Assembly: GCA_001443495.1 (NCBI GenBank)
Contig: LDXR01000021.1
Coordinates: 1 to 41,717 of the forward strand
Source of the DNA: a candidate division NC10 bacterium CSP1-5
Lineage (GTDB): Bacteria; Methylomirabilota; Methylomirabilia; Methylomirabilales; CSP1-5
Length of the DNA stretch: 41,717 nt
Direction: 5' to 3'
Part shown: one piece after another, positions 15,284 to 37,958 of the stretch
Numbering within the stretch: position 1 is the first letter of the stretch
Layout: each line of letters opens with the position of its first letter
The notes under the pieces: model-generated
What the model was told of the DNA's origin: nothing
The model's database searches: none
Seen by the model: the letters and a program-made list of their open reading frames with translations, nothing else
Program-made: the position numbers and the translations under genes

Positions 15284-16525
15284 GTGGGTAAGGTAACAGG
15301 ACTTCGGTGTCCGAGGTGCACGACCGGCTACCCCGTCGAGATCGAGGGGCGCCTGTGCGAGCGGTGCCGCTATATCCTGGAGGTGGAAGTCGACCTCAGC
15401 GAGCTTCACACGAAAAGGCCGGACTATTTCTTGAATCGCGCCGAGAGGAGTATCTGGAGGTGGAGGGAGTTTCTCCCGATCGAGAAGGAGGGGGCCATCG
15501 TGACCCTCGGCGAAGGTGGCACGCCACTTGTGCCTGTAGAGAGACTGCGTCGCGACGTGGGTGGGGCCGAGGTCTATCTGAAGAACGACACCGTGCTTCC
15601 CACGGGCTCGCTCAAGGACCGCTCCAATGCCGTTGCGATCTCTCGCGCGATCGAGGAGGGTCGCGCGGTAGCGGCCGTGGCCTCGACCGGCAATGCCGCC
15701 GCCTCGGTGGCTGCCTACGCCGCTCGCGCGGGTCTCGAGAGTGTCGTCTTCGTCCCGGAGGCTACGGCGCCCGAGAAGGTGGTCCAGGCGGCTTCCTATG
15801 GCGCGCGCATTGTCCGGGTGCAGGCGGACTTCGATGGAACGGCACGCGTGTACGGCCAGGCGCTCAAAGCGTTCGGCTGGTACAGCTGTGACTCGTCAAA
15901 CCCGTGGCGGAACGAGGGGAAGAAAAGTTACGCCTACGAGATCTGGGCCGACCTCGGCGGCCGCGTGCCCGACTGGATCATTCATCCGACCGCAGGAGGG
16001 GTCGGCGCCGCCGCTTGCTGGAAGGGGTTCAACGAGCTGTATGGGCTGGGGTGGATCGACCGGCTTCCAAGGATTGCCGCGGCTCAGCCGGCGGCCTGCG
16101 CCCCCGTGGTCCGAGCCCTCGATGCAGGGTGGGATGAGATCCGGCCCGTCGAGGCGGAACAGACCATCGCGGAGAGCATCCGGGTAGGAAGCCCCTCCAC
16201 CATGGCCTGGTGCGCCCTTCGCGCCGTCCGGGAGTCACGCGGGACGGCGGTGGCCCTTTCGGAGTCAGAGATCGAGAGGGGCCAGGTCCTCGTGGCAAGA
16301 GAGGCCGGGATCTTTGCCGAGCCGGCGGGGGCGGTTTCCTTCGGGGCAGCGATGCGCCTAGCGCACGAGGGGATCCTCCGCCCGGAACATCTCGTTGTGG
16401 TGGTGATCACCGGCCATGGCTTGAAGCAGCCCCGGACGGGCCTCGCCCTTCCAGCCGCGATTCCGCCCGACCTTCGTCTGATCGAACAGGCCCTTCAAGT
16501 TCGATGCCGAACACCTAATACCTAA
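15284..16525 (+). CDS. thrC: Threonine synthase (PLP fold type II) with N-terminal zinc ribbon
   Basis: A 413-residue PLP enzyme of the threonine synthase family, which converts O-phosphohomoserine to threonine. An N-terminal CPRC/CERC ribbon (residues 9-28) precedes the catalytic domain. The PLP lysine should be K111 in TGSLKDRSN; most threonine synthases read SFKDRG here, so the loop is divergent. STGNAAASVAAYAAR forms the phosphate loop. The GTG at 15284 is preceded by GGGGAG. The last codons and the TAA stop (16523-16525) lie inside a 7-bp word array, so the tail TPNT is probably repeat-derived. A related PLP lyase activity cannot be excluded. Confidence 0.85.
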   Translation: MGKVTGLRCPRCTTGYPVEIEGRLCERCRYILEVEVDLSELHTKRPDYFLNRAERSIWRWREFLPIEKEGAIVTLGEGGTPLVPVERLRRDVGGAEVYLKNDTVLPTGSLKDRSNAVAISRAIEEGRAVAAVASTGNAAASVAAYAARAGLESVVFVPEATAPEKVVQAASYGARIVRVQADFDGTARVYGQALKAFGWYSCDSSNPWRNEGKKSYAYEIWADLGGRVPDWIIHPTAGGVGAAACWKGFNELYGLGWIDRLPRIAAAQPAACAPVVRALDAGWDEIRPVEAEQTIAESIRVGSPSTMAWCALRAVRESRGTAVALSESEIERGQVLVAREAGIFAEPAGAVSFGAAMRLAHEGILRPEHLVVVVITGHGLKQPRTGLALPAAIPPDLRLIEQALQVRCRTPNT

Positions 16526-16537
16526 TACCCAACACCC
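16510..16537. repeat. Four tandem 7-bp words, AAYACCY
   Basis: Four contiguous heptamers start at 16510, 16517, 16524 and 16531, all of form AAYACCY. They cover the stop codon of threonine synthase and most of the 17-bp gap to the convergent MEMO gene. No reverse-complement arm is seen. Confidence 0.75.
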
Positions 16538-16542
16538 AGGCG

Positions 16543-18841: not shown

Positions 18842-20758
18842 ATGCCCGAAACCGCGTACGACGTCATTGTAGTCGGGGCGGGCCACGCCGGCTGCGAGGC
18901 GGCGTTGGCCTCCGCCCGCCTGGGCTGTCGGACCCTCCTCCTCACGTTGGACCTCGGGACCATCGCCCACATGCCGTGTAGCCCCTCAGTCGGCGGGACC
19001 GCTAAAGGCCAGCTCGTCCGGGAGCTGGATGCGCTGGGAGGCGAGATGGCTCGCGTGACGGACCGGAGCGGGACACAATTTCGAATCCTGAATGCCTCCA
19101 AGGGCCCGGCGGTCCGGTCCTCGCGGGCCATGTGTGATAAACAGGAGTACCATCTGGTCATGCGAGGAGTCCTGGAGAGGCAGCAGGGATTGGATCTCCG
19201 GCAGGGGAGGGTGGAGCGGCTTGTCGTGGAAGGGGGGCGCGTCGTCGGACTCGTTAACCACGAGCGGACCTTCTTCAGCGCCCAAGCCATCCTGATCACG
19301 GCCGGGACATTTATGAAGGGGCTCATCCATATCGGCTCCACCAACTTCTCCGGCGGACGGATGGGAGAGCGACCCTGCCACACCCTGTCCGACTCCCTCC
19401 GGGAGCTTGGCTTTGCGCTGGGACGATTCAAGACAGGCACGCCACCCCGCCTCAAGCGGGATTCGCTCGACCTTGACCGGATGGAGCGCCAGGAGGGCGA
19501 TGTCCCACCACGCCCCCTCTCCTACGCCACGACGGGGCTCGAGATCTCTCAGGTCCCTTGTCACATCACCCATACCACCACGAGGACGCACGAGATTATT
19601 CGAAAGAATCTGGACCGTTCGGCACTCTACGGCGGGGCCATCAAGGGGACCGGGGCCCGCTACTGTCCGTCGCTGGAGGACAAGGTGGTCCGCTTCTGTG
19701 ACAAGGAGCGGCACCAGGTGATCGTGCAGCCCGAAGGGCGCGACTCTGACGTCTTCTATCCGGGCGGCCTGGGCAATAGCATGCCCTTTGAGGTGCAGGC
19801 AGAGTTGGTCCGCTCGGTACCCGGGCTGGAACGCGCGGAATTTCTGCGGCCTGCTTACGCCATCGAGTACGACTTTCTGTATCCCAATCAACTCCAGCTC
19901 ACCCTGGAGTCCAAGCGGGTGCAGGGGCTCTACACCGCCGGGCAGATCAATGGAACCTCTGGCTACGAGGAGGCGGCGGCGCAGGGGTTCTGGGCCGGAG
20001 TGAATGCCGCCCTCAAGGTCCAGGGGGCTCCCCCCTTTCTCCTCGACCGCTCCGAGGCCTACATGGCGGTCCTGGTGGACGATCTGGTGACCCGTGGCAC
20101 CAGCGAGCCCTATCGCATACTCACCTCCCGGGCCGAGTATCGTCTGCTGTTACGGGAGGACAACGCCGATCTGCGCCTGATGGAGCACGGCTACCGCCTC
20201 GGGTTAATTTCGCGGGAGCAGTATGAGCGCCTGGAGGAGAAGCGGGGGAAGATCCAGGAGGTCACGGAACGGATCACGAGGCGAAGGCTCTATCCGACCT
20301 CGCGCGTGAATGGGGTGCTCTCCCGTCTCGGAACCGCCCCGCTTCAGGAGGTGGCCCCGATGGTGCAGGTTCTGCGACGGCCGGAGGTTCGTTTTGCGGA
20401 TCTGCTCCTGATGGATGAAGGCATGAAACCCGAGGACTCTGAGGTGACGTATCAGGTTGAGGTGCAGCTCAAGTACCAGGGGTACATCGAGCGGCAGTTT
20501 CAGGAGGTGGAAAGGTTCAAGCGCCTTGAGGCGAGGCGGATCCCCGAGGATGTGGATTACGACGCGATCCCCGGCCTCTCCAACGAGGTGCGGGAGAAGC
20601 TCAGGGCTGTCCGTCCGACATGCGTCGGACAGGCCTCCCGCATCTCCGGCGTGACGCCCGCCGCGATCTCCATCCTCCTCGTGTATCTCGAGCGCCGCAG
20701 GCACGAGCGCCCGGAAGCTGTCAGCTGTCGGCCCTCTGCGCACAGTGCTGAGGACTGA
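18842..20758 (+). CDS. mnmG: tRNA uridine-5-carboxymethylaminomethyl modification enzyme MnmG (GidA)
   Basis: The FAD-binding subunit of the MnmE-MnmG complex, which installs the (carboxymethyl)aminomethyl group on wobble uridine 34 of several tRNAs. At 638 residues it has usual length. FAD site [12 protein letters not shown] is near residues 11-22, then [35 protein letters not shown], the family signature [16 protein letters not shown], and [15 protein letters not shown]. The ATG at 18842 has AGGAG 5 bases upstream. The last 14 residues and the TGA stop are encoded by a 7-bp word array, so the tail is not conserved sequence. No mnmE or rsmG lies next to it; a DRG-like GTPase gene follows. 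Confidence 0.97.
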
Positions 20759-20858
20759 GGACCGAGTCGGAGAAAAGGACTGAGGACTGAGTGCTGAGGT
20801 TCGAGCCTCAGTCCTCGTGGCTGCCCTTGGCTCAGTCCTCATCGCTCAGTCCTGACGT
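20717..20858. repeat. Paired 7-bp word arrays, (G)GACTGA then CTCAGTC, between mnmG and the GTPase gene
   Basis: Left part: GCTGTCA and GCTGTCG (20717, 20724), then GGACTGA-type words at 20745, 20752, 20759, 20777, 20784, 20791. Right part: the reverse-complement word CTCAGTC at 20807, 20831 and 20845 with related words between. GAGGACTGAGG (20750-20760) and its complement (20806-20816) form an 11-bp perfect arm. The array encodes the mnmG C-terminal residues and holds its stop (20756-20758); it ends 15 bp before the next start codon. Confidence 0.8.
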
Positions 20859-20872
20859 GGCTGGAGAAAAGC

Positions 20873-25595: not shown

Positions 25596-25674
25596 AGCAA
25601 TAGAGCAGTAGAAGAGTAGACTGATCCGCAAAAAAAATGCTCCATTGCGGTCTATTGTTCTATTGTTCCATTGT
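25596..25674. repeat. Paired 8-bp word arrays, AGCAATAG then TCTATTGT
   Basis: Three octamers of form AGNRGTAG/AGCAATAG start at 25596, 25604 and 25612. After about 30 bp three octamers of complementary sense (TCTATTGT, TCTATTGT, TCCATTGT) start at 25651, 25659 and 25667, preceded by a related TCCATTGC at 25641. A 7-bp CACATGT/CACATGA pair follows. It is the octamer version of the paired heptamer arrays and lies between two plus-strand genes, after the terminator. Confidence 0.75.
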
Positions 25675-25746
25675 CACATGTCACATGATGAAATGCGTTT
25701 GTGTTAGTGCCGTTCCAGCACCTCGTACGCACGTCCCGCGGCAGAA

Positions 25747-29955: not shown

Positions 29956-30900
29956 CTACGACCCCCCGACCAAGCTGCGGAGGACGGCCAGGTTGCGGCG
30001 GTCAGCCGCAACAGGATCCTCCCCCTTTGGGGTCTCGAGGATCATGGGGATGTGCTGAAGGCGCGGGTCGTTGATGAGGAGACGGAATCCTTCCAGGCCG
30101 ATCTGCCCTCGGCCGATATGGGCATGACGGTCCACGCGACTCCCCAGATCGCGCTGCGAGTCATTCAGGTGGATGCATGTGACGTGGTCGAGGCCGACGA
30201 CGCCGTTGAGCTGTCGCATAGTGTCTTCGTATGCCCTCTGGTCCCGGATCTCGTACCCCGCTGCAAAGATATGGCATGTGTCCACGCAGATGCCGACGCG
30301 TTCCCGTCGCGTCACGCCCCCTCGGATAGCCGCCAGATGCTCGAAGCGGTAGCCGAGACTCGAACCCTGTCCCGCCGTGGTCTCGAGACAGATCATGACG
30401 GGGGAGGCCTGGGGATCCTCGAGGACCGTGTCCAACGCCTCCACGACCCGCGTGATCCCCTCCGCCTCCCCGCTTTCGAGGTGCGCGCCCGGATGGATAA
30501 TCAGGTACGGGATCTCGAGGACGGCTGCCCGCGCGACCTCGATCCGGAGGGCCTCCAGGGATTTCCTGTGGAGGTCTTTGTCGGGGGAAGCGAGGTTGAT
30601 CAGGTAGGAGTCGTGAGCCAGGATGGGATCGATGCTGGTCCGCTGGCGGTTGGTCTTGTACGCTCTGATCTCCCGCTCCGTGAGGGGCGCGGCCCGCCAC
30701 TGGTTGTTGTTCTTGGTAAAGATCTGCATGGCATCGCAGCCGACCTCCTCCCCGCGGAGAAAGGCCTTGTCCACGCCGCCCGCGATGGACATGTGCGCCC
30801 CCAGGCGAGGCCCTTTCCAATCGGACCCTTTGAGGCGTGGACCGTGGTGGGGGGGTAGCGCAGATTCTTTCCGCATCGCGAGATCTCGTTCATAGTTCAT
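29956..30900 (-). CDS. nfo: Endonuclease IV (AP endonuclease)
   Basis: A 314-residue zinc-dependent TIM-barrel enzyme that nicks DNA 5' to abasic sites in base-excision repair. The metal-binding landmarks are present in order: GAHMSIAGG, YLIIHPGAH, ICLETTAGQGS, GICVDTCHIFAAGY, HLNDSQ with GSRVDRHAHIGRG, and MILETPKG. The start is unclear. ATG 30900 lies inside an array of ATGAACN heptamers, which gives ATG codons at 7-bp steps and so in all three frames; ATG 30876 (MRKESALPP) is outside the array. Homologues commonly begin close to GAHMS, so the first 30 residues are extra in either case. Confidence 0.93.
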   Translation of the reverse strand: MNYERDLAMRKESALPPHHGPRLKGSDWKGPRLGAHMSIAGGVDKAFLRGEEVGCDAMQIFTKNNNQWRAAPLTEREIRAYKTNRQRTSIDPILAHDSYLINLASPDKDLHRKSLEALRIEVARAAVLEIPYLIIHPGAHLESGEAEGITRVVEALDTVLEDPQASPVMICLETTAGQGSSLGYRFEHLAAIRGGVTRRERVGICVDTCHIFAAGYEIRDQRAYEDTMRQLNGVVGLDHVTCIHLNDSQRDLGSRVDRHAHIGRGQIGLEGFRLLINDPRLQHIPMILETPKGEDPVAADRRNLAVLRSLVGGS

Positions 30901-31007
30901 CGTTCATGGTTCAGGGTAGCCAGGAAGATGATCGGAGTCCTCGCGTGGATGGGGAAGAGCACTGGGTCAGGTCTCTGGCCATGAACCCTGAACTCTGAAC
31001 CGTGAAC
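30888..31007. repeat. Paired 7-bp word arrays, GTTCANN then NNTGAAC
   Basis: Four GTTCANN heptamers start at 30888, 30895, 30902 and 30909. After 64 bp of other sequence, four NNTGAAC heptamers start at 30980, 30987, 30994 and 31001. Every word keeps five bases and varies in two. Some words are exact complements across the gap (GTTCATG with CATGAAC, GTTCAGG with CCTGAAC). The left arm lies over the nfo start, the right arm over the last codons of the TIGR02757 gene, both on the minus strand. Confidence 0.9.
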
Positions 31008-31812
31008 CATCCCGGAGCATCCCCAGCCGGCAGAGGGCGAAGTCGTATTTGACCGGATCCGCCGGGTCGAACTGTTTCAGGTTCTCGGTGATTTCGAGGG
31101 CCATGGCCAGGCCTGGGCTCTTCATCCGGGTCAGGCGGAGCCGCCGTGAGACCTGGGCCACGTGCGTATCCAGGGGGATGATCAGCTTCGCCGGCGGCAG
31201 CTCGGGCCACAGGCCGAAGTCGATGTGATCCTGCCGGACCATCCAGCGAAGGAAAAGGTGCAGGCGCTTGCACGCCCCTCCACGCGCCGGTGAGGGGAGG
31301 AGATGATGCATCCCTGGCGAGAGGTGTCCTTTGCCATAGACCGGTCGCGGGTCGAGCCGCAGGACCTTGGTGACGAAGGCGGTGAGCGCCGGTCGCGTGT
31401 CCTCGTCCCGGTCCCGGTATCCGGCGAGGTAGCAGGCCCGGAGCGAGCCGTAGCGCTCGAGGGTCTGGCGGAGGAACCAGAGCAGGCAGATCGCATCTCG
31501 AGCGGCGTTAAAGCGGTATGAAAACGTGCGGAGGCGCTCGGCGTCCCGCCTGGGGTCGAAGGCAAGCAGCGACCCGTAGGGGTGATCCCCCAGGACCGCG
31601 AGCAGGGTATCGATCGGGGGGGTGAATCCCTCGACCCGGCCGTACGCAAAGCAACTGGCGATGAAGCCCACTACCTCGATGTCTTCCGGCCGGTGGTAGC
31701 GGTGGGGGAATTGAGCGGCCGACGTCGGGATGTAGCTCAGATCGTAGGTGGCGTACAGCCGGTCGAGATAGGCCTTGATGTTCGGAGGAGCGACCCTCGG
31801 CTGGGCCGCCAT
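30967..31812 (-). CDS. TIGR02757 (DUF2400) family protein
   Basis: A 281-residue protein of the TIGR02757 family, whose function is not known. Family-like segments are DLSYIPTSAAQFPHRY, EVVGFIASCFAYGRV, FSYRFNAARD, CKRLHLFLRWMVR, PAKLIIPLDTHVAQVSRRL and DPVKYDFALCRLGM; the last two have some likeness to HhH-type DNA glycosylases. The next gene on the strand is endonuclease IV, so a DNA repair role is a fair guess. The final residues (GSRFRVQGSWPET) are encoded by the GTTCANN word array, so the natural C-terminus has been replaced or extended by repeat sequence. Confidence 0.85.
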   Translation of the reverse strand: MAAQPRVAPPNIKAYLDRLYATYDLSYIPTSAAQFPHRYHRPEDIEVVGFIASCFAYGRVEGFTPPIDTLLAVLGDHPYGSLLAFDPRRDAERLRTFSYRFNAARDAICLLWFLRQTLERYGSLRACYLAGYRDRDEDTRPALTAFVTKVLRLDPRPVYGKGHLSPGMHHLLPSPARGGACKRLHLFLRWMVRQDHIDFGLWPELPPAKLIIPLDTHVAQVSRRLRLTRMKSPGLAMALEITENLKQFDPADPVKYDFALCRLGMLRDGSRFRVQGSWPET

Positions 31813-37923: not shown

Positions 37924-37942
37924 GCTCATGGTTCAGAGTTCA

Positions 37943-37958
<16 letters not shown>
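37924..37958. repeat. Palindromic 7-bp word array (GTTCANN) at the clpB stop
   Basis: Heptamers start at 37924, 37931 and 37938 in the GTTCANN sense and at 37945 and 37952 in the complementary sense. 37931-37943 and 37945-37957 are complementary at 12 of 13 positions around a single central base. The clpB stop codon (37945-37943) lies in the centre. The word is the same as at 30888-31007. Confidence 0.85.

Follow-up and report, generated by a model that had tools for sequence, protein, structure and literature searches.

The two arrays of seven-base words in the spacer upstream of nfo in the stretch of DNA analysed here (the window, 41,717 nucleotides of a candidate division NC10 genome) are not a product of chance, but one member of a genome-wide class of word-array hairpins. 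Comparison among congeners shows that the unit at a given site is either inherited, with substitutions and indels of whole heptads, or exchanged in one piece for a hairpin made of other words, and that replacement outruns point mutation. To our knowledge, heptamer repeats, noted in prokaryotes for decades, are unexplained as regards why seven bases, why these words and what role. The rules described below (words of five fixed plus two free bases, a lock on inverted orientation, short arms, an alphabet but no order common to both arms, and content replacement at fixed sites, one of them in frame in hisF) make this a testable problem.

The element occupies the spacer that separates nfo from a DUF2400/TIGR02757 gene; the two genes are read on the minus strand. 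Its parts, and the related features of the window, are as follows:

30888 to 30915, plus strand: left arm, four heptads GTTCANN (NN = TA, TC, TG, GG), from word search, shuffles and the G005 orthologue
30888, 30895, 30902 and 30909-30913: word cores of the left arm, in GTTCAta, GTTCAtc, GTTCAtg and GTTCAgg
30914 to 30981: loop, 68 bp between word cores, with the NN pair of the fourth left heptad counted in
30980 to 31007, minus strand: right arm, four heptads NNTGAAC, i.e. GTTCANN on the minus strand, from word search and shuffles
30982, 30989, 30996 and 31003-31007: word cores of the right arm, in TGAACcc, TGAACtc, TGAACcg and TGAAC
29956 to 30900, minus strand: nfo (deoxyribonuclease IV) ORF, family match from residue 30-33
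30967 to 31812, minus strand: DUF2400/TIGR02757 ORF, its last codons encoded by the right arm
37931 to 37955, no strand assigned: second, minimal GTTCA element, GTTCAgaGTTCA-tta-TGAACgcTGAAC, from word search
20735 to 20860, no strand assigned: left and right arms of a CTGAGNN-family element, with a related copy at G000:C2:373739 (G000 being the window's genome)
25649 to 25675: copy of the TTGCTCC 8-mer family, with further G000 copies at C2:95900, C2:398444, C3:152700, C4:16175, C5:8991 and C5:10744

An earlier, sequence-only reading of the locus had described four heptamers per arm, the arms inverted relative to each other and every heptamer consisting of five fixed and two free bases; the coordinates and the excess over shuffles confirm this architecture, and the suggestion that the arms could pair in several registers was right. 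The gap, however, measures 68 bp between word cores and not 64 bp. The left arm had been placed over the nfo start. Of the nfo ORF, that arm covers no more than the earliest candidate ATG; with a family match that sets in at residue 30-33 and a simple gene model that begins at 30792, the gene probably starts downstream of the arm, near 30792. The overlap of the right arm with the last codons of the upstream gene holds for the DUF2400/TIGR02757 ORF; these codons fall beyond the conserved domain, which ends at residue 265. Aligning the locus among relatives, as had been proposed, we found that G005 has an orthologue in which the word cores are kept and the loop is clearly homologous but diverged; the nfo spacer carries GTTCA, TCCGA or GAGTNGA arrays in 7/7 congeners (G001 to G006, represented by stretches or loci, and G000). 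The loop itself has no second occurrence in the genome sample. Elsewhere in the window (16507-16538), the period-7 array CCGAACACCTAATACCTAATACCCAACACCCA adds another word family, for which no clear partner array was seen.

Across the 2.77-Mb genome there are 124 exact copies of the triple word GTTCANNGTTCANNGTTCA (67 forward, 57 reverse), against 0 + 0 for the reversed control. Counting exact and near matches, the window alone holds 8 where 0.57 are expected, a number reached in 0/100 shuffles. In a de novo period scan of the intergenic DNA of 842 kb of G000, lag 7 peaks at 50 and lag 8 at 22, compared with ~5-6 after shuffling, and lag 14, a multiple of 7, also peaks. A complementary partner (score at least 11) lies within 150 bp of 35/55 arrays but of only 1/55 control flanks (p = 4e-13). 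The genome-wide enrichment for which the sequence-only reading had proposed a test is therefore strong, and its description of paired inverted arrays stands; GTTCA, however, is just one of a wider set of words. The period-7 words of the genome include GTTCANN, GTCAGCN, CTGAGNN, GTCCGAN, GTCAANN, GACCGAY and GTGA-type words, and the period-8 words are GCTAGNNN and GGAGCAAT. The same kind of hairpin is built from words other than GTTCA (GTCAGCN, GTCCGAN, CTGAGNN, GTCAANN, GACCGAY and more); sampling is thinner for these words than for GTTCA, and the comparison genomes vary in completeness. GTTCA bears a possible resemblance to the tRNA T-loop.

A typical unit measures ~100 bp and has arms of three or four 7-nt words, the word being the same in the two arms, around an unrelated loop of ~25-70 nt. 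Orientation is all but invariant: across 35 related genomes there are ~270 matches to the convergent arrangement GTTCA...TGAAC and one divergent place, and for all words paired at least twice 333/338 are in the majority orientation, a count in which the GTTCA words of GTDB loci were preselected as convergent. Within 842 kb, GTTCA runs comprise two words (6 cases), three words (12) or four words (23) and none is longer; five-word runs are present elsewhere in the genome. Each genome has its own NN alphabet, common to both arms but not in register, with 119 best-register matches observed, 117.3 when the order is shuffled and 33.5 when arms are swapped between elements of the set, mostly from different genomes. 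The arms that had been described as complementary arrays thus share word types without being register-matched copies, and exact palindrome duplication of one arm was ruled out because the NN order is unmatched. Ordinary heptanucleotide microsatellites, generated by polymerase slippage, would account for the whole-heptad indels documented below, and in several prokaryotes no class of long simple repeats is commoner than heptamers (Mrazek et al. 2007, as cited in PMC4679880). We nevertheless consider slippage very improbable: two of the seven positions differ from unit to unit, no run in 842 kb exceeds 4 words, words are replaced wholesale, and the inverted, orientation-locked partner arrays already contradict it.

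Arrays are found in 45/409 co-directional or convergent spacers and in 0/50 divergent ones (p = 0.009; 842 kb, spacers and genes counted with a home-made gene model). The usual position is directly after the 3' end of a gene, never between divergent promoters in the sample, and many units lie in operon-like co-directional spacers or inside genes. The units are predicted to form strong RNA hairpins (median z -3.5); Rfam covariance models gave no match to them. A serious rival to the explanation that we favour below is, accordingly, that the units are functional RNA stem-loops, selected for separating cistrons through processing, 3' protection or translation decoupling, so that any pairing word serves and words turn over under this selection. 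The hairpin strength and spacer bias agree with this, as do the persistence of occupancy while words change and the mild constraint on core words. Yet units sit in frame within hisF and a P-type ATPase gene, where there is no cistron boundary, the free bases are unmatched in register between the arms, stability leaves the orientation lock unexplained and many spacers lack any unit; on balance we hold RNA function to be quite unlikely as the cause. Provision of stop codons in six frames was dropped as a function, because several words contain no stops and units lie in frame inside genes.

One in-gene unit lies in hisF (TIGR00735), where the insert sits between AIDAKR and WEVYIHGGR and is in frame in 7/7 congeners. 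Its words are GTTCA in G000, G005 and G003, CCAGAGT/CCCTCAG in G001 and G002, TCCGAAG in G004 and TCCAAAG/TCGGACG in G006; in members of families f2, f4 and f6 this position is filled by inserts made of yet other words, and in f3, f5, f7 and a few f6 genomes there is no insert but a short loop, 5-9 residues long (11 in G014). A single-contig genome, G026, also carries a unit. Another in-frame unit lies in the heavy-metal P-type ATPase gene. Because of these cases the unit is not simply a spacer device, and the initial picture of an element bridging two genes was too narrow. In hisF of G003 and G006 the flanks are 98% identical and the inserts unrelated (0.51). G001 and G002 have their insert in common (0.86, flanks 0.82), and G000 and G003 theirs (0.81, flanks 0.77), with G003's close relative G006 carrying another allele. 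Alleles are common to non-sister species, namely G000/G005/G003 and G001/G002. Whether by rewriting or by allele swap, new protein segments are created inside a conserved enzyme.

Wholesale replacement at fixed sites, the main biology of these units, is invisible from one locus, and it emerged from comparisons that rest on metagenome-assembled genomes; independent assemblies have orthologous units in common, with near-identical loops. Orthologous units of G000, G005 and G002 follow two modes: either the loop is kept at about the identity of the flanks and whole heptads are occasionally lost, or the unit is completely swapped for a hairpin of other words while the genes remain ~90% or more identical up to the border. 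Words change at fixed sites across 8 loci in up to 7 congeners. For 25 orthologous units of G003 and G006, with flanks ~97% identical, our reading of the alignments gives 10 inherited, 13 replaced and 2 with the same word but rearranged; the 13 replacements are unrelated hairpins, usually of another word family. At the same loci, spacers below 75% identity make up 14/21 of those with arrays and 0/13 of those without (Fisher p = 1.6e-4). Within conserved units, changes affect 8/230 positions of the word cores and 10/68 free bases (p = 0.002 for this contrast), 19/244 loop positions and 144/1658 flank positions. Unit-step deletions of 14 nt occurred at C2:189444 and L312/L338 and 7-nt indels at L430:7325 and L440:6100, and remnants of an old array persist beside the new one at L444/L457 and L308/L342. 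What changes in a replacement is the content of a site that is already occupied; no clean empty/filled pair at high identity, of the kind that would expose a target-site duplication, was seen.

Two further G003/G006 loci combine arrays with other changes. At L439:1818-2101 (G003) versus L458 (G006), a replacement next to an array goes together with the loss of the greater part of an adjoining tRNA gene, which has GGGCCCA repeats at its ends. Opposite L425:6525 (G003), the array spacer at L464 (G006) contains a ~400-bp insertion with an ORF that may be akin to the 23S rRNA intervening-sequence / four-helix family.

A search for the sources of the new units was negative. The loops of 23 GTTCA units did not recur in the sample, and 6/6 replacement cassettes of G006 match in full length only themselves in the seven genomes, the other matches being arm-only or short and partial (the most significant is 65 bp at 82% in G004). 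Copy-paste transposition was thus ruled out, as there are no repeated loops or donors. A second serious rival is that nothing but allelic exchange takes place, i.e. that large, old pools of hairpin alleles are swapped by homologous recombination through the flanks and new alleles are rare. This sits well with the missing donors within the genome and with the trans-species sharing in hisF (G001/G002, G000/G003). It sits less well with G003/G006 flanks that are ~98% identical right up to the border, so that donors must be very close relatives, with mosaics that retain the edge of the old array, and with six cassettes lacking a full match in the other six congeners; exchange by itself therefore appears unlikely to us.

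The same searches bear on the notion of a selfish REP/REPIN- or MITE-like element whose transposase reads the word arrays as inverted ends. It would explain the fixed inward orientation and the patchy occurrence over unrelated phyla and some viral contigs, and the same genome does harbour a true dispersed repeat in the TTGCTCC 8-mer family. There are, however, no repeated loops or donor copies, replacement stays at the same site, and Y1 transposases are missing from the incomplete, array-rich assemblies G001 and G004 and abound in the array-poor family f4; the single Y1 gene of the window's own genome has no arrays within 1.5 kb. A Y1/RAYT transposase was accordingly rejected as driver, there being no correlation with arrays, and the selfish reading as a whole is improbable.

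Repeats that do recur were also observed. The TTGCTCC family consists of ~140 bp of 8-nt words (GGAGCAAT / TTGCTCCA) in copies 77-91% identical, a truly MITE-like dispersed repeat, and one CTGAG pair recurs as a unit, unlike the GTTCA loops. A short motif, GGCTCGACTGAGCTCGCCGAAGTC, is found in or beside heptad arrays at G000 C2:286706 and C4:105250 and at loci L297 and L021. In the G005 orthologue of C2:20612, a ~50-bp insert with a GGCTCGACTGAGCTCGCCGAAGTC variant interrupts the right arm and is apparently another small mobile sequence.

In the order to which the window's genome belongs, families f1 and f2 and many members of f6 are array-rich; f3 and the class-mate family f7 have no arrays. 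The congener G005 agrees with 'Candidatus Methylomirabilota bacterium nzgw238' in 397/397 of the 60-mers tested, which puts the window in phylum Methylomirabilota. Among the GTDB matches listed, paired GTTCA arrays of 4+3 words occur in records titled Geobacter, Acidobacteria, Blastocatellia, Prevotella, Chitinophagales, Chloroflexi/Anaerolineae, Rhodothermaceae, Elusimicrobia, Planctomycetes, Verrucomicrobiales, Armatimonadetes, Calditrichia, Alpha-, Beta- and Deltaproteobacteria and in an archaeon, Methanophagales (ANME-1), and other seven-base words are plentiful in the same loci. The named carriers among these matches are all metagenome-assembled, and two array queries found no match in plasmid records of isolates, which says little because the low-complexity filter was on. 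Both points could be taken to indicate an assembly or binning artefact; with orthologous units and near-identical loops in independent assemblies, in-frame hisF units and a unit in the single-contig genome G026, we regard the probability of this as negligible. GTTCA arrays are also present in some viral contigs, and at loci L282, L285, L291 and L293 their loops recur (GGACGCGCAAGCGG...), unlike in bacterial genomes, possibly representing a mobile version. The unrelated bacterium G158 gives 86 matches to the reversed control ACTTGNNACTTGNNACTTG, its own 5+2 array system with the word ACTTG/CAAGT.

The explanation we favour, tentatively, is that word-array hairpins occupy long-lived sites at which the fragile resident hairpin is rewritten by repair, the alleles then spreading by recombination. 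The resident hairpin itself would be the fragile target, as a cruciform or a lagging-strand hairpin, and might be cut by an SbcCD-type or similar nuclease; repair would then fill in a fresh inverted array, 7 nt at a time and with words drawn from a limited set, and new alleles could also spread when the flanks recombine. At the RNA level, the unit may form a multi-register stem-loop between cistrons that is tolerated or mildly useful and is not the reason for its existence. Against repair-rewriting, no enzyme for it emerged from the analysis, fold-back repair alone predicts neither the fixed word orientation nor the same words across phyla, and the hisF alleles common to non-sister species also fit import without local rewriting. 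Word cores, moreover, are conserved more than loops, a hint that something recognises the word. A bolder and more doubtful proposition is a general prokaryotic process, shared by bacteria and one archaeon or more, that actively writes orientation-locked inverted arrays from a small set of seven-base words into fixed sites and, via an unknown polymerase or repair pathway, renews them more quickly than point mutations accumulate; if true, this would make it a sequence-generating system of a categorically new kind. Rewriting of hairpins in place would imply a novel pathway for writing or repairing sequence, and if they are swapped alleles, the loci are sensitive markers of recombination.

Several known systems invite comparison. 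The nfo element has no T run after either arm and is thus unlike an intrinsic terminator, a GC-rich stem followed by a T run, as the sequence-only reading had held. It was equally right to set the arrays apart from REP sequences. With REP/BIME/REPIN and their RAYT (PMC3116915, PMC3733652) the units share short palindromic structure at gene 3' ends and high copy number, but loops and word types differ among copies, different words occupy one site, there is no common hairpin sequence or many-copied conserved palindrome, and no repeat-flanked Y1 (RAYT) gene or other Y1 link was found. Like MITEs, they have inverted ends around a non-coding core in ~100 bp; unlike MITEs, and in contrast to the TTGCTCC 8-mer family, their cores are not repeated, donor copies are lacking and there are no dispersed near-identical copies that include the core. 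The slippage, REP/RAYT and MITE models each fail in a defining feature that was tested. The heptameric repeats of Xanthomonas and Nostoc are G-rich and able to fold into quadruplexes (PMC4692102); GTTCANN arrays likewise have 7-nt tandem units, but contain no G-runs and pair with an inverted arm.

Searches of open PMC papers brought up neither GTTCANN arrays nor inverted, orientation-locked pairs nor the replacement of words, and no described element with such behaviour; the closest known kind is the heptamer repeats, as the sequence-only reading had judged. Heptamer tandem repeats are known from cyanobacteria (STRR) and from Beggiatoaceae (TAACTGA), the latter set being direct, with 169 sets versus one indirect repeat (PMC4679880). 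STRR, long simple sequence repeats and TAACTGA resemble the present units in their 7-nt period, here above chance in intergenic DNA, their mostly intergenic position, their patchy distribution over unrelated phyla and their use of several words. Instead of near-identical head-to-tail units with open-ended copy number, however, the units described here vary at 2/7 bases, have arms of mostly four words or fewer, form orientation-locked inverted pairs around a loop and are exchanged whole at fixed sites.
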